The notes under the pieces: generated by a model
Databases searched by the model: none
What the model saw: the letters and a program-made list of their open reading frames with translations, nothing else
What the model was told of the DNA's origin: nothing
In this document: positions 2,966-11,119 of the stretch, piece by piece
Position numbering within the stretch: position 1 is the stretch's first letter
How the letters are laid out: each line of letters begins with the position of its first letter
From: Flavobacteriaceae bacterium
GTDB lineage: Bacteria > Bacteroidota > Bacteroidia > Flavobacteriales > Flavobacteriaceae
DNA length: 64,000 nt
Reading direction: 5' to 3'
NCBI GenBank assembly: GCA_947371275.1
Contig: CANBOV010000001.1
Span: forward strand, 18,182-82,181
Translations under genes and position numbers: made by a program

Positions 2966-5629
2966 TTAATCTGCTATATTTGGTGCCAGCCATTTGTTAG
3001 CCAATTCGGTAGAAATCCCTCTACGTTTGGCGTAATCAATTACTTGATCTTCTTTAATTTTCCCCAATCCAAAATACTTACTTTCAGGATTAGCAAAATA
3101 ATAACCGGAAACCGATGCCGCTGGCCACATCGCCATATTTTCGGTTAATTGCACTCCGATTTCGTTTTCTACATTTAGCAATTTCCAAATGGTTGGCTTT
3201 TCTAAATGATCTGGACAAGCTGGATAACCTGGCGCTGGGCGAATTCCTTTATATTCTTCGTTAATCAAATCTTGATTACTCAAGCTTTCATCTGAAGCAT
3301 AGCCCCAAATTTCCTTTCGAACTTTTAAATGCAAATATTCCGCAAATGCTTCTGCAAATCGATCACCAAGTGCTTTAACTAAAATCGAATTATAATCGTC
3401 TAATTGCTTTTCAAATTCAGCCGCTTTTTCATCAACTCCAAATCCTGTTGTCACACAAAAACAGCCAATATAATCTTGTTTTCCCGAATCTTTTGGTGCA
3501 ATAAAATCCGCTAAAGCTATATTAGGTGCCCCAGCTGTTTTTTGAGATTGTTGCCGTAAAGTCAAAAGTTGAAGGTTGAAGGTTGAAAGTTGGATATCGT
3601 CATCATTTATTGTATTGGCCGGAAATATTCCTAAAATTCCTTTGGCGGTCAACCATTTGCGGTCAACGATTTGTTGTAGCATTTCTTGAGCATCTGCAAA
3701 TAACGTTGTGGCTTGCTCGCCAACTACTTCATCTGCTAAAATAGCCGGATATTTTCCATGCAATTCCCAAGATTGAAAGAAAGGAGTCCAATCTATAAAA
3801 TCTACTAATTCTGAAAGCTCCACTTCTACTTTTTGGGCTCCGATAAAATTAGGCTGAACTGGATTAAATTTGTCCCAATTCAATTGCAATTTATTTTTAC
3901 GAGCATCTTCAATAGACAAGAAATTTTTATCTCTACTTCTGCTCAAATAGCCTTCTCTTAATTTATCGTATTCCTCGCGTACTGATTTAGCATAAGCTAC
4001 TTTCGTCTCTGCTTGGAGCAAATTACTCGCAACCGTTACTGCCCGAGAAGCATCGTTTACATGAACCACCGTTTCTTTATATTCTGGTGCAATTTTTACT
4101 GCAGTGTGGGCTCGAGAAGTAGTTGCCCCACCAATCATTATTGGAATATTGATATTTAGTTTATCCATTTCTTTAGCGAGATAAACCATCTCATCTAATG
4201 ATGGTGTAATCAATCCACTAAGACCAATAATATCAACATTCTGATCAATTGCAGCTTTAATTATTTTTTCGGGCGGCACCATAACGCCCAGATCAATGAT
4301 TTCGAAATTGTTGCACCCTAAAACTACTGCTACAATATTTTTCCCGATATCGTGTACATCTCCTTTTACAGTGGCCATCAAAACTTTACCCGCAGATGAG
4401 GATTTTCCGTCCTTTTGAGCTTCGATGAATGGCAATAAATAGGCTACTGCCCTTTTCATTACGCGAGCTGATTTCACTACTTGCGGCAAAAACATTTTTC
4501 CGCTTCCAAACAAATCCCCCACAACATTCATCCCAGCCATCAAATTAATTTCGATGACATCAATTGCTTTATCAGACGCGGCTCGAGCCTCTTCCACATC
4601 TATTTCAATGAACTCATCAATTCCTTTCACTAATGAGTGTGTTAATCGATCTTGAACTGAACCGTTACGCCATTCTTGAATTAACTTTTCATTTACTTTA
4701 AAACCACCTTTGAAACTGTCTGCTAAATCCAGCAATCGCTCTGTAGCATCATCTCTCCTGTTTAACAAAACATCTTCAACATGTTCTAATAATATCGGGT
4801 CGATTTCATCGTATATCTCAAGCATTTCAGGATTTACAATTCCCATTGTCATTCCGTTCTTAATTGCGTGAAAAAGAAACGCAGAATGCATAGCTTCTCG
4901 CACTTTATCATTGCCGCGAAAGGAAAAGGAGACATTACTGACCCCTCCTGATATTCCGGCATTTGGAAGATTTTCACGGATCCATTTGGTTGCTCTAAAG
5001 AAATCTAAAGCGTTTAATTTATGCTCATCCATTCCTGTTGCCACTGGAAAAATATTTGGATCGAATATGATATCTTCGGCAGGAAAAAGCACTTCATTTA
5101 CTAGAATATCGTAACTTCTTTTACAAATTTCAATCCGTCTTTCGTAGGTATCCGCTTGCCCATCCTCATCAAAAGCCATTACAATAACGGCAGCCCCATA
5201 TCGTTTAATCAATTTGGCATGATGCATGAAGACATCTTTTCCTTCTTTAAGAGAAATCGAATTCACTATACCTTTTCCTTGAATGACTTTTAATCCTGCT
5301 TCAATAATCTCCCATTTGGAACTATCGATCATAACGGGAACACGCGCAATATCGGGTTCGGCAGCAATTAGATTTAAGAATTTGGTCATGGCATAAATAC
5401 CATCCAACATTCCTTCGTCCATATTGACATCTATAATTTGAGCTCCTCCTTCAACCTGTTCTCTCGCGACTGAAAGTGCTTCTTCATATTTCTCTTCTTT
5501 AATTAAACGTAAAAATTTACGCGATCCAGTAACATTTGTACGTTCACCAACGTTGATGAAATTAGATTCGGGCGTTACAATAAGTGGCTCCAAACCTGAT
5601 AATCGTAAATATTTAAATGCTGTCGCCAT
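2966..5629 (-). CDS. metH: Methionine synthase, pterin-binding/B12-binding/activation modules (split MetH C-terminal subunit)
   Basis: [27 protein letters not shown] (B12 DxHxxG), [15 protein letters not shown]-type activation domain. Confidence 0.95.
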
Positions 5630-6618
5630 TATATCTTTTCTAAAATTGTTCTTGGTCTAAAATCTTTTGCAACTTCGGCGATAGCCCTAATATGCTCTGG
5701 CGTAGTTCCGCAGCATCCTCCAATAATATTTACTAAATTATCTTGCAAATATTCTTTTATTAAGGCTTGCATTTCCATTGGAGTTTGATCGTATTGTCCG
5801 AAGGCATTTGGCAAACCTGCATTTGGATGAGCCGAAATATTCAATTGGGTATTCATTGCTAAACGTTTTAAATAAGGTTTTAATTGATCTGCACCCAAAG
5901 CGCAATTGAATCCGATACTTAACAACGGTATGTGCGCTATTGAAATTAAAAAAGCTTCTACCGTTTGACCAGAAAGTGTTCTTCCCGAAGCATCGGTAAT
6001 AGTTCCTGAAACCATTACAGGCATTTCAATATTACGCTCTTCTTTTACTTCTTCTATTGCAAATAATGCTGCTTTAGCATTAAGCGTATCAAAAATTGTT
6101 TCTACTAAAAGCACATCCACACCGCCGTCGATTAATGCGTTGACTTGCTGTTTATAAGCAAATCGTAAATCATCAAAAGTGACTGCACGAAATCCAGGAT
6201 CATTCACATCGGGAGACATTGAAGCAGTTCTATTGGTTGGACCTATAGAACCCGCAACAAATCTTGGCCGGTCTGTGAATTCATCTGCCACTTCTCGTGC
6301 GATTTTGGCTGATTCATAGTTTAATTCATAAACTAAATCTTCAAGGAAATAATCGGCCATTCCAATAGTCGTTCCCGAGAATGTGTTTGTTTCTACTATA
6401 TCAGCACCCGCTTGAAAATACAAACGATGTACCTCTTTCACTGCTTGGGGTTGCGTGATAGAAAGCAAATCGTTATTACCTTTTAGTGGATGTGAAAAAT
6501 CTTTAAACCTTTCACCACGAAAATCTTCTTCTGAGAAATTATTTCTTTGAAGCATAGTACCCATAGCACCGTCTAATACTAGAATTCTTTCGTTGATGGC
6601 ATCTTTAATTTTTGACAT
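5629..6618 (-). CDS. metH: Homocysteine S-methyltransferase (split MetH N-terminal subunit)
   Basis: [22 protein letters not shown] Zn motif; stop abuts start of the next ORF. Confidence 0.95.
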
Positions 6619-6773
6619 TTATTCTTCTTTACAAAAATTTATAAATAGTACCCTGCGATGAAATAAAAGCCTTCAGTTTAAAAGTTTAAATCTGTTGGAA
6701 ATATTTCCATCTGTAGCTCAGGAGCTCCTAAATTATAGTATGTGTTATCTTGAAAGTGAGAGGAATTCTCTGG

Positions 6774-6874
6774 GTTATCTGTTCTCAATTTAACGAGATA
6801 GAATGTAGCACCTTCTTTTGGCAAAGGGTTGCTAAGCTTTCAACGGGTCTATTCCCTCCAGCTTTCGTGATAAC
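6774..6874 (-). ncRNA. SAM-I (S-box) riboswitch
   Basis: Minus strand: GTTATCACGAAAGCTGGAGGGAATAGACCCGTTGAAAGCTTAGCAACCCTTTGCCAAAAGAAGGTGCTACATTC...GAGAACAGATAAC. S-box core GGAGGGA/CCC..GAA/GCAACC/GGTGCTA, P1 GTTATC/GATAAC; upstream of metH. Confidence 0.93.
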
Positions 6875-7015
6875 AAACAATACGATTATGAACGGCACAA
6901 AGTAAGAACATAGAAACGGGATTTGCAAGCAAATTAAAAAAATAAAAACCTACAACGTTTTAGTGCTACAAGTATTAGTGGATTATTATTGATTAATTTT
7001 ATAAATTACTGTTTC

Positions 7016-8116
7016 TTATAAACAAACAGTTTCTTTTATTTTTAATTTTTCGGAAATTTTTAGAATGTCTGTCAACACTCCTCGAGCGGTCACTTTTTTT
7101 CCAGCTCCAGCACCTTGAATTACTAATGGTATTTCACCATATGATTTTGTGTAAATTTCAATTAAATTATCAGCTCCTTTGAGTTGTCCAAGTGCCGAAC
7201 TTTTCGGCACTGATATTAGTTTAACTTCGAGTTGCCTAGTTTGCACATTTAGTTCGCCCACATAGCGCAACGCATGATTATCCACTTGGGTAATTTTGGC
7301 AATTTGGAATGGTTTGTCAAACAATTGTTTATTGACGGAATACTCAGTCTTACAATGATTTTCATTCAGATTGGGGAGCAAAAGGGATTCAATTTTAATA
7401 TCTGTGAATTCAAATTCTTGTTCGATTTCGCGTGCTAAAATCAATAATTTTCGGGCAACATCATTTCCGGATAAGTCTTCACGAGAGTCGGGTTCTGTCA
7501 ATCCAAAATTTTCAGCATCTACCAAAATTTTAGAAAACGGAATATCTTCATTGGAGAAACGATTAAAAATATAACTTAATGACCCAGAAAACACACCTCT
7601 TATTTTAATAATTTCTTCTCCCGAAAAATATAAATCACTTATTGTTTGAATAACTGGTAATCCAGCTCCAACATTGGTTTCATACAGGAAGGTTTTGCCA
7701 TTTTTATCGACATTTCTTCTGATTTCTCTGTAAAAATTGGTATCAAGTGTATTTGCTTTTTTATTAGCTGCAACAATATTGAATCCGTTTTGGATCAGCC
7801 GAATATAATTTTTGATGATATCTGAACTCGCTGTGGCATCAACCGCAATAAGGTTTTCTAATTCTTGTTCCTGCACATATTCGATAATATCTTCTATTCG
7901 AAATGGAATCGCCGATTGTGCAAAGTTAGCTTCCCATTGATTTTTGAGACCCTCTTTTTCGAAGAAAGCTAAAGTAGAATTGGTGATTATTGGAAATCGC
8001 AAATCAATATTTCTTTTTTCGAAAAAGAATTTTTGACTTTCAATTACTTGGTTTATCAATGTGCTTCCGATATTTCCGATTCCGAAAAGGACTATGTTTA
8101 TTCTAAGCGTTGACAT
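7016..8116 (-). CDS. hom: Homoserine dehydrogenase
   Basis: NIVLFGIGNIGSTL Rossmann, ANKKAN, GVFSGSLSYIFN motifs. Confidence 0.9.
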   Translation of the reverse strand: MSTLRINIVLFGIGNIGSTLINQVIESQKFFFEKRNIDLRFPIITNSTLAFFEKEGLKNQWEANFAQSAIPFRIEDIIEYVQEQELENLIAVDATASSDIIKNYIRLIQNGFNIVAANKKANTLDTNFYREIRRNVDKNGKTFLYETNVGAGLPVIQTISDLYFSGEEIIKIRGVFSGSLSYIFNRFSNEDIPFSKILVDAENFGLTEPDSREDLSGNDVARKLLILAREIEQEFEFTDIKIESLLLPNLNENHCKTEYSVNKQLFDKPFQIAKITQVDNHALRYVGELNVQTRQLEVKLISVPKSSALGQLKGADNLIEIYTKSYGEIPLVIQGAGAGKKVTARGVLTDILKISEKLKIKETVCL

Positions 8117-9104
8117 ATGCTTGTTGTTTTTGTTTGTTAAAAATTGGAGCTAAAATTTGAGCTAACTGTTCAAACTCGATTAAAAAAGCATCATGACCAT
8201 GAATGGAATTAATTTGGTAATAAAAAACATCTTCTTTAACAGCTTGCAATTGTTGATGTGTTTCGCGATTCTCATCGGGGGTGAAAAAATAGTCAGTATC
8301 AACGGCTATAACATGAATCGCCGCTTGGATAGTTTTGGCTACAACCAAAAAATCGCCTCTATCTCTCGTAATATCATTGGTTTTCAGTAAATGATTCATT
8401 AACTTATAGGCAGATAAACGAAAGCGATTTTTGAGTTTTATACCATGATTTACCAACCAATTTTCAATTTGAAAGATGGATAAATTATTGAACTTGTTTC
8501 TTTGAAATCTTTGGTTAAAGGATTGCGGTGTTCTGTACAATAACATGGCATGCAAGCGAGCATCAGCTATCGGGTCATCAGAGTTATTGAGAATTTGATC
8601 CTGTATCAATACATTAGCAATAACCCAGTCTGTGGCTTTCCAATCTGTCGCAATTGGAATTAAATTCTTAACCTTTTTAGGTTGTAAAACGGCCATTTCC
8701 CAGGCAACAGCTCCACCTAAACTACCTCCAATGATAGCAAAAACTTCTTCGATTTTCAAAAAGCGAAGGCCTTCCCAAAAAATACGTGCGATATCACGAA
8801 TGGTAAAATCATGATAGGCCGAAATCAGGTTGCCAAAAATATCATCGTATCCATTCCCAGGAATATTGAACGCAATCACCGTGAAATAATGCGTATCGAT
8901 GATTTTGTCTTCACCTATCAAATCGTTCCACCAGCCTGTTTCTCCTGTTACAGTTGAGTTTCCGGTCAAAGCATGATTCACTGCAACAACTGGTGCAGTG
9001 CCAATTGGCTGACCAAAAACCTGAAAGAATAACGGAATATAAGGTCTTTGTTTTCCGCTTTCTAAATTAAAATGGAATAAGTCTATTTTTTCTAAATTTT
9101 TCAT
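8103..9104 (-). CDS. metX: Alpha/beta hydrolase, homoserine O-acetyltransferase family
   Basis: NHALTGNS, GGSLGGAVAWE nucleophile elbow, HDAFL; between metY and hom, overlaps hom. Confidence 0.88.
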   Translation of the reverse strand: MKNLEKIDLFHFNLESGKQRPYIPLFFQVFGQPIGTAPVVAVNHALTGNSTVTGETGWWNDLIGEDKIIDTHYFTVIAFNIPGNGYDDIFGNLISAYHDFTIRDIARIFWEGLRFLKIEEVFAIIGGSLGGAVAWEMAVLQPKKVKNLIPIATDWKATDWVIANVLIQDQILNNSDDPIADARLHAMLLYRTPQSFNQRFQRNKFNNLSIFQIENWLVNHGIKLKNRFRLSAYKLMNHLLKTNDITRDRGDFLVVAKTIQAAIHVIAVDTDYFFTPDENRETHQQLQAVKEDVFYYQINSIHGHDAFLIEFEQLAQILAPIFNKQKQQAYVNA

Positions 9105-9184
9105 TTTTCTATTTTTTAAAAGACTGTCTAAAGCCGCGAAACTGAAGACAGTCTTAGCAAACAAACCTAACCAATGGTTTTCTT

Positions 9185-10477
9185 TTAAATTAATTGTGGG
9201 CTTTTTACAGTTACAAAAGCCGCTTTTAAATCCGCTTTTAAATCATCGATGTTTTCTAAACCAACAGACAGACGAATCAAATCTTTGGTAACACCTGTTG
9301 CTTCTTGTTCAGCATCAGATAACTGTTGATGTGTAGTGCTGGCTGGATGAATAATAAGTGACTTAGTATCTCCGATATTTGCTAATAATGAAAATAGTTT
9401 GGTAGTATCAGCTACTTTTTTAGCAGCTTCAAATCCTCCTTTTAATCCAAATGTTACTATTCCACTTTTACCTTCTGGCAAATATTCGTCGGCTAATACT
9501 TTGTATTTAGAGGTGGCCAAACCAGGATAATTTACCCATGCCACTTCTTCTTGTGTTTGCAACCATTGGGCTAAAGCCAATGCATTTTCGCTGTGTTTTT
9601 TGATTCTAATTTCCAAAGTTTCTAATCCTTGAATGGTTTGAAAAGCGTTAAACGGACTTAATGCTGCTCCGAAATCGCGTAAGCCTTCAATTCTTACTTT
9701 GGCAATAAATGAGGCAGCTCCTAGAACTTCGTAGTATTTTAATCCGTGATAACCTGCTGAGGGTTCTGTAAATTCAGGGAATTTTCCATTGCTCCAATCG
9801 AAGTTTCCAGCATCAATGATTACACCTCCTAATGAAGTTCCGTTTCCCGTGATATATTTAGTTAACGAATGAATGACAACGTCGGCACCATATTGAATTG
9901 GGTTTAGCAAAAAGGGTGTAGCGACGGTATTGTCAACAATAAAAGGCACTTTGAAAGCTTTGGCTTCTCTTGAAATCGCTTTCAAATCGAGCACATCTAA
10001 TTTTGGATTTCCTAAACTTTCTACGAAGAACGCTCTTGTGTTTTCTTTTGCCCCTTTTGTAAAGTTTTCGGGATTTGCTGGGTCAACGAAAGTTGTTGTT
10101 ATGCCTAATCTTGGCAAAGTAACTTTAAGCAAATTGTAGGTTCCTCCATATAAACTGTTCGATGCTACGATATGATCTCCAGCTTTTAGCAAAACCAAAA
10201 GTGTGGTAGCAATGGCTGAAGTACCTGAAGCGGTTACGACTGCTCCAATACCGCCTTCAAGGGCGGCTAAGCGTTGTTCCAAAATATCATTCGTTGGATT
10301 GTTCAGTCGTGTGTATATAAATCCAGCTTCGGCTAAACTAAAAAGATTGGCAGCATGGTCAGAATTATTAAACACATAGGATGTAGTTTGGTAAATTGGT
10401 ACCGCTCTGGTTCCTGCATTTTTAGTAACGTCGTGTCCCGCATGTAGTGCTTTAGTGGCAAATTTTTGTGTGCTCAT
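9185..10477 (-). CDS. metY: O-acetylhomoserine aminocarboxypropyltransferase (sulfhydrylase)
   Basis: TKALHAGHD, SLTKYITGNGTSLGGVIID PLP motif. Confidence 0.93.
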   Translation of the reverse strand: MSTQKFATKALHAGHDVTKNAGTRAVPIYQTTSYVFNNSDHAANLFSLAEAGFIYTRLNNPTNDILEQRLAALEGGIGAVVTASGTSAIATTLLVLLKAGDHIVASNSLYGGTYNLLKVTLPRLGITTTFVDPANPENFTKGAKENTRAFFVESLGNPKLDVLDLKAISREAKAFKVPFIVDNTVATPFLLNPIQYGADVVIHSLTKYITGNGTSLGGVIIDAGNFDWSNGKFPEFTEPSAGYHGLKYYEVLGAASFIAKVRIEGLRDFGAALSPFNAFQTIQGLETLEIRIKKHSENALALAQWLQTQEEVAWVNYPGLATSKYKVLADEYLPEGKSGIVTFGLKGGFEAAKKVADTTKLFSLLANIGDTKSLIIHPASTTHQQLSDAEQEATGVTKDLIRLSVGLENIDDLKADLKAAFVTVKSPQLI

Positions 10478-10516: not shown

Positions 10517-10556
10517 AATAAAAAAGTCCCTTTGGATGGTTTACCAAAGGGACTTT
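10517..10556 (-). terminator. Attenuator terminator 2, upstream of metY
   Basis: Minus strand AAAGTCCCTTTGG-TAAACCAT-CCAAAGGGACTTTTTTATTTT, 13-bp stem plus U-tract, 5' of the metY start. Confidence 0.92.
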
Positions 10557-10578
10557 CAAGGTGTAGAGTAATCTACGT

Positions 10579-10674
10579 TTAAGGCTTCCACATTTGGCAA
10601 TAAGGTATAACGATGCAACAACACATCATGTGCATCATTTGGATCATCATCATATTATTTGCTGTTGTGTTCAT
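10579..10674 (-). CDS. Met/Cys-rich leader peptide 2: MNTTANNMMMIQMMHMMCCCIVIPYCQMWKP*
   Basis: 31-aa ORF with 9 Met (including start) and 4 Cys, clustered as MMMIQMMHMMCCC; followed by terminator 2; too short for the ORF track. Confidence 0.88.
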   Translation of the reverse strand: MNTTANNMMMIQMMHMMCCCIVIPYCQMWKP

Positions 10675-10708
10675 TTTTTTTCTAAAATTATGTTGAAATT
10701 ATTTCTAA

Positions 10709-10738
10709 TAAAAAAACCTCTGCCAATGGCAGAGGTTT
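10709..10738 (-). terminator. Attenuator terminator 1, between leader peptides 1 and 2
   Basis: Minus strand AAACCTCTGCCATTGGCAGAGGTTTTTTTATT. Confidence 0.92.
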
Positions 10739-10763
10739 CATTGTATATTTTAAATATTTAAAA

Positions 10764-10832
10764 TTATGCAATAGTGTACTCTGCGGAATTTTCCGGCATC
10801 ATGCAACACATATGGCAATTTGTGAATTTCAT
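10764..10832 (-). CDS. Met/Cys-rich leader peptide 1: MKFTNCHMCCMMPENSAEYTIA*
   Basis: 22-aa ORF with a CHMCCMM run; followed by terminator 1. Confidence 0.85.
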   Translation of the reverse strand: MKFTNCHMCCMMPENSAEYTIA

Positions 10833-10880
10833 CTCTTTCTTATTTTATGAGACAAACTTCTGAACTATTTTTTAAATGAC

Positions 10881-10911
10881 CAAACATAATTTGAAAATTT
10901 AACATTTGAAA
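10881..10911 (-). promoter_or_regulatory. Candidate Bacteroidota promoter for the leader-metYX-hom transcript
   Basis: Minus strand TATGTTTG (TAnnTTTG) with TTTC 19 nt upstream (one mismatch to TTTG). Confidence 0.5.
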
Positions 10912-11020: not shown

Positions 11021-11031
11021 CACACGAAAAT

Positions 11032-11081
11032 GGGAGGAAAAATTTGAACTGATTGCAACCTCGGTAAAAAATGCTAAAGCA
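11032..11081 (+). ncRNA. SAM-II (SAM_alpha)-like riboswitch aptamer
   Basis: GGAGG-AAAAATTTGAACTGATTGCAA-CCTC-GGTAAAAAATGCTAAAG: P1 GAGG/CCTC, loop TTTGAAC..ATTGCAA, 3' GCTAAA strand; at the transcript 5' end upstream of metK. Confidence 0.75.
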
Positions 11082-11119
11082 GAAACTCTCCTTTAGCATT
11101 CCCTGCAATCTTTTTTTTT
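11051..11119 (+). terminator. Terminator-like hairpin overlapping the SAM-II-like aptamer
   Basis: AATGCTAAAG/CTTTAGCATT 10-bp stem with outer GATTGCA/TGCAATC, then T9. Confidence 0.75.

Follow-up and report, generated by a model that had tools for sequence, protein, structure and literature searches.

Two serial, putatively ribosome-mediated attenuators with Met and Cys codons in the metY-metX-hom leader of a Flavobacteriaceae bacterium

The metY leader region

The DNA analyzed here (the window) is a 64,000-nt stretch of Flavobacteriaceae bacterium GCA_947371275.1 (contig CANBOV010000001.1, positions 18,182 to 82,181 of the forward strand). A similarity search with its metY gave closest relatives of 93-95% identity, mostly from Flavobacterium species, and the window is Flavobacterium DNA. 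The genes 3' of the leader region are metY, metX and hom, as an earlier note on this sequence had said, and metK lies upstream of it in divergent orientation. The features of the region are as follows, in the direction of transcription.

10853 to 10884, minus strand: candidate sigma-A type promoter, -33 TTTG (10884-10881) and -7 GAAGTTTG (10860-10853), a weak match in the window copy
10764 to 10832, minus strand: leader 1 ORF, MKFTNCHMCCMMPENSAEYTIA
10797 to 10817, minus strand: leader 1 control codons C6 to M12, TGC CAT ATG TGT TGC ATG ATG
10784 to 10795, minus strand: protector hairpin (1:2), CGGA-AAAU-UCCG, compensated across 41 modules
10779 to 10784, minus strand: 5' arm of the module 1 antiterminator, GCAGAG, pairing with 10729-10734
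10713 to 10739, minus strand: terminator 1 (3:4), followed by a U-tract that reaches about 10707; the antiterminator 3' arm lies within the left arm of this terminator
10579 to 10674, minus strand: leader 2 ORF, MNTTANNMMMIQMMHMMCCCIVIPYCQMWKP
10615 to 10653, minus strand: leader 2 control codons, M8 to C20
10593 to 10600, minus strand: 5' arm of the module 2 antiterminator, UUGCCAAA, pairing with 10541-10548 (UUUGGUAA, terminator arm and loop)
10522 to 10557, minus strand: terminator 2, with a U-tract to about 10517
9185 to 10477, minus strand: metY, O-acetylhomoserine/O-acetylserine sulfhydrylase family (TIGR01326)
8103 to 9164, minus strand: metX-like homoserine acyltransferase, whose true start may be internal
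7016 to 8116, minus strand: hom, homoserine dehydrogenase

We use module for a Met/Cys-rich leader ORF together with its antiterminator and terminator, module 1 lying upstream of module 2. Both leader ORFs (10832-10764 and 10674-10579) read exactly as the earlier note had given them, and the intrinsic terminator that it had placed behind each, ahead of the first gene, is present as a stem-loop followed by a U-tract, at 10739-10713 (12 bp, -18.1 kcal/mol) and 10557-10522 (14 bp, -21.3 kcal/mol). The sites had been chosen correctly, but the spans first assigned to them (10709-10738 and 10517-10556) took in part of the U-tracts. Non-start Met and Cys make up 6 of the 21 residues of leader 1 (binomial p about 1e-5) and 12 of the 30 residues of leader 2 (p about 4e-12), against 2.5% in the window proteins, so that the enrichment claimed for both short ORFs, in codons for the operon's own amino acid, lies far beyond chance by this test. 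We do not expect either peptide to fold. The 64 kb hold 35 terminator-like sites on both strands, and only terminators 1 and 2 are preceded by a Met/Cys-rich short ORF. Judged by its sequence, a single leader transcript would carry two complete attenuators, as in leaders of the mgtCBR type.

Some 4.3 kb of this DNA hold three differing RNA sensors for the Met/SAM pathway: a SAM-I element (6772-6876, minus strand) ahead of metH, a SAM-II element with a long loop (11028-11087, plus strand) before metK, which is divergent, and, upstream of metY-metX-hom, the Met/Cys tandem leader (10522-10832, minus strand). The methionine synthase (2966-6618, minus strand) is split into two adjoining ORFs, a homocysteine S-methyltransferase half at 5629-6618 and the remainder at 2966-5629. 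We found no cysH in the source genome, which is 87% complete, and no second module 1; the next match there (E 3e-4) is on contig 8, where the module scan gave no Met/Cys leader.

Conservation at metY loci and ahead of other genes

We collected 80 metY loci on metY similarity alone. At least one module is present at 79 of them, with both in series at more than half, and the Met/Cys codon runs are thus clearly conserved in orthologous leaders, the point on which the earlier note had been prepared to see its reading fall. At the sole locus lacking a module, that of Paucihalobacter (L075), metY is preceded by a SAM-I riboswitch. The two modules differ in terminator type (CCTCTGC in module 1, CCTTTTGG in module 2), and module 1 precedes module 2 in all 55 tandem pairs collected. 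Scanning with the -7 consensus TAnnTTTG given in PMC9723704, we found a sigma-A type promoter upstream of the first leader ORF in 32 of 42 orthologs; from terminator 1 to leader 2, the 37 loci scanned gave no such site.

Modules have been lost in some copies: a johnsoniae-type group has module 2 only, L072 and L080 have module 1 only, and leader 1 of F. psychrophilum (L029) has no stop codon before the terminator. These cases speak for a reading in which one module is active per species and its partner is either a relic or an additional terminator. In the window, however, ORF, antiterminator and terminator are all retained in both modules, and the pair recurs in a single order upstream of several different genes; moreover, because the upstream neighbor metK is divergent, no insulating terminator is needed. 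We therefore regard the one-module reading as unlikely, and favor two working attenuators in series.

In three johnsoniae-type loci (L033, L030 and L053) terminator 2 is separated from metY by an extra small ORF, about 60 aa long and beginning MNTLDINTIAFQYLLRNN or MKTLNSIAVEYLLRND. In L072 and L080 the place of module 2, about 65-120 nt ahead of metY, is taken by a Cys/Arg-rich short ORF (MKIAIYNPRRCCRMCS) with no terminator detected. At two further loci (L001, positions 2124-2744, and L099) a CpeT/CpcT-family gene (PF06206, 207 aa) lies between modules 1 and 2, so the modules are separable by a gene.

Beyond the 80 metY loci, modules were found partly by their Met/Cys content or with models built from such modules, so that codon counts there are not independent of the search. 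They also stand ahead of metX, a metH half, cysH, a cysE-like gene, NIR_SIR-family reductases and second metY copies, and the tandem pair recurs upstream of metX, cysH and second metY copies. At E <= 0.01 the module 1 model matched 117 of 150 Flavobacterium genomes, and about 18 further genera of Flavobacteriaceae gave strong matches. Outside the family the distribution within the phylum is sporadic, with Met/Cys leaders before metY, cysH or a reductase in inspected cases (L175, L177, L182, L183, L206, L289 and L290). R1/R2 matches outside Flavobacteriaceae with E of about 1e-5 to 1e-3 proved on inspection to be mostly ordinary 3' terminators and were not counted.

For a few of the genes that follow a module (OsmC, TonB receptor, CpeT) a link to sulfur amino acids is not obvious, which counts against reading the modules as Met/Cys attenuators. 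TonB-dependent receptor-like and OsmC-like genes follow Met/Cys modules at L137, L142, L170, L151 and L133, Pfam confirming the receptor at L137 and OsmC at L151; uptake or stress functions are possible for them. At metY of 29 other genera, SAM-I occurs without a module in 21 and modules without SAM-I in 5, with neither in 3 and both in none (Fisher p = 0.0005, a value from which relatedness is not removed).

RNA pairing and codon placement

The module 1 pairings were evaluated in 41 modules from several genera with various downstream genes. For the antiterminator, 96.6% of cells are paired and four of the five pairs show double changes; none of 500 shuffles equaled the real modules in pairing or in covariation score, and slid controls were 27-59% paired. 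Compensatory examples include GCAGCG/CGCTGC, GCAAGG/CCTTGC and TGTGGG/CCCACA. The protector lies directly 3' of the ATG ATG pair and shares its 3' arm with segment 2 (GCAGAG), and it too varies in a compensatory manner (tgtgga/tccgca, tgtgtaa/ttacgca, gtggc/gccgc). Module 1 thereby has the 1:2, 2:3 and 3:4 arrangement of trp-type attenuators. In module 2 the antiterminator extends into the terminator loop and is 89% paired, with double changes at two pairs, weaker than in module 1; the pair that involves the loop is seen as GU, AU, UA and GC, a covariation not explicable by the terminator stem itself. We saw no clear protector in module 2. In both modules, then, an antiterminator mutually exclusive with the terminator is conserved by compensatory change, less strongly in module 2, and an energy swap test, which ignores relatedness, gave the same direction as the covariation counts. 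These pairings, together with the module 1 protector, lend support to the ribosome-mediated attenuation that the earlier note had proposed.

We calculated how a ribosome would affect these pairings by partition function, moving a footprint, its size assumed from E. coli, codon by codon along each leader. The module 1 antiterminator is predicted to be free (0.95-1.0) as long as the stall lies no further than M12, with blocking from E14 onward; for module 2 the prediction is a free antiterminator (0.7-0.8) for stalls as far as C20 and V22 and a blocked one from I23 onward, placing the switch point just past the last Met in module 1 and the run's last Cys in module 2. With no ribosome, the calculation gives the module 1 antiterminator 0.52 against 0.32 for the protector, and leaves module 2 open (0.78). 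Among 69 module 1 and 64 module 2 sequences (non-redundant), Met and Cys codons peak 12-36 nt 5' of the antiterminator arm, and across the boundary their share falls from 43% to 7% in module 1 and from 41% to 21% in module 2. The control codons are thus placed, in the model, where a stalled ribosome would free the antiterminator. Against this stands the observation that in many copies of leader 2 the antiterminator is overlapped by the later Cys codons, at which stalling would favor termination; these codons remain partly unexplained.

In an alignment of 22 sequences, the Cys codons of leader 1 vary synonymously, and every sequence keeps the final ATG of the run. The RNA 3' of the codon run (UCCGCAGAG) is conserved while its reading frame differs (MMPENSAE versus MMWKSPQR), and because the RNA is kept where the frame changes, selection appears, from these sequences, to act first on the codons and then on RNA pairing. 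The same change of peptide frame over conserved RNA argues against peptides that sense a metal such as copper, with attenuators answering metal-dependent stalling rather than amino-acid supply. The leaders do cluster Met, Cys and some His residues (MMHMMCCC in leader 2), but His is rare in the control region, and the genes downstream are those of sulfur amino-acid synthesis and sulfate assimilation, with no recognized copper genes among them. On downstream gene content and the frame-shifted peptide tails we rejected metal sensing, which we hold to be extremely improbable.

An undescribed riboswitch for SAM or a sulfur compound, with the ORFs incidental, would be in keeping with a leader that stands where related genera have SAM-I. 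Rfam 15 gave no known element at 10.5-10.83 kb on the minus strand, nor did the SAM-I and SAM-II covariance models match there. Conservation is confined to control codons, protector, antiterminator and terminator, and the invariant ATG beside synonymously varying Cys codons likewise speaks against it. With no further conserved folded core seen, this candidate was also rejected, and we give it very little weight. Ribosome-mediated attenuation accordingly remains our preferred reading.

A two-stage attenuation model and known systems

We consider it highly probable, from the features above, that the metY-metX-hom operon has its leader at 10.52-10.83 kb and that this leader contains two serial ribosome-mediated transcription attenuators, very probably acting as two off-switches that open only when ribosomes lack Met or Cys. 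How the leader is transcribed and translated, and where ribosomes stall in response to Met/Cys supply, we infer as follows. In each module RNA polymerase would transcribe a short ORF with abundant Met and Cys codons in its control region, and scarcity of Met-tRNA or Cys-tRNA would stall a ribosome on these codons. In module 1 the stalled ribosome would cover the 5' half of the protector hairpin. In both modules GCAGAG or UUGCCAAA would then be available for pairing with the terminator's left arm, and transcription would go on. With both amino acids ample, the ribosome would move toward the stop codon and cover GCAGAG or UUGCCAAA, and the terminator would form. Expression of the operon would need passage of both terminators, from which a tighter or steeper response is expected. 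Severe Met shortage would, as a counterpoint, also hinder initiation at the leader AUG.

A broader proposal, which we put forward tentatively and hold to be less likely than not, is that the fixed-order two-module cassette is the sulfur amino-acid control element of many Flavobacteriaceae whose modules differ in default state. Module 1, with its protector, would tend to terminate when untranslated, and module 2 would antiterminate with ribosomes stalled or absent, so that a combined Met and Cys signal is computed; the cassette would have exchanged places with SAM riboswitches in evolution.

Leader-peptide attenuation is a classical mechanism. The trp/his/thr-type attenuators of Proteobacteria share with the present leader a short ORF, control codons, a protector, an antiterminator and terminator with a common arm, and a cognate biosynthetic operon, whereas here Met and Cys codons occur together, in two serial units, in Bacteroidota, and module 2 has no clear protector. 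SAM-I (RF00162) resembles the leader in its position before metY, which it takes in 21 of 29 other genera, and in reporting on the Met pathway, but it binds SAM directly, has no leader peptide and was never found alongside modules at metY here. The Salmonella mgtCBR leader has two short ORFs, each with its own attenuator, responding to proline-tRNA and ATP (PMC3641672); it resembles the present leader in having two ORF-attenuator units, but in the metY leader Met and Cys codons are present in each unit, and we saw no sequence relation. Polycysteine leader ORFs precede cysteine genes in mycobacteria and other Actinobacteria (PMC1262725; Canestrari 2020 via PMC13236596), and are similar in being Cys-rich; they differ in that no intrinsic terminator was found and Met runs are absent, with control that is translational or of unknown mode.

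The earlier note was not aware of a tandem Met/Cys case in this phylum, but leader-peptide attenuation had already been suggested there (PMC7366714, PMC9723704), and tandem attenuators are known elsewhere (PMC3641672). The 2021 paper PMC9723704 suggests the same mechanism in the same genus, at amino-acid operons of F. psychrophilum; neither metY nor a Met/Cys leader is mentioned in its main text, and overlap is possible through its Table S7. In a literature search covering main texts, mostly outside subscription journals, we found no description of Met codons in a leader-peptide role or of such a regulon. Relative to these known parts, the apparent novelty, as read from sequence, would be the use of Met codons in a leader peptide, the regulon itself and the constant order of the modules.

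The analysis points to a likely layer of control over sulfur amino-acid synthesis in a large group that is common in the environment and whose regulation has received little study. One operon run either by a SAM-binding riboswitch or by a codon-reading leader would make two sensing strategies comparable, and the leader itself would be a natural two-stage attenuator carrying the codons of two amino acids.
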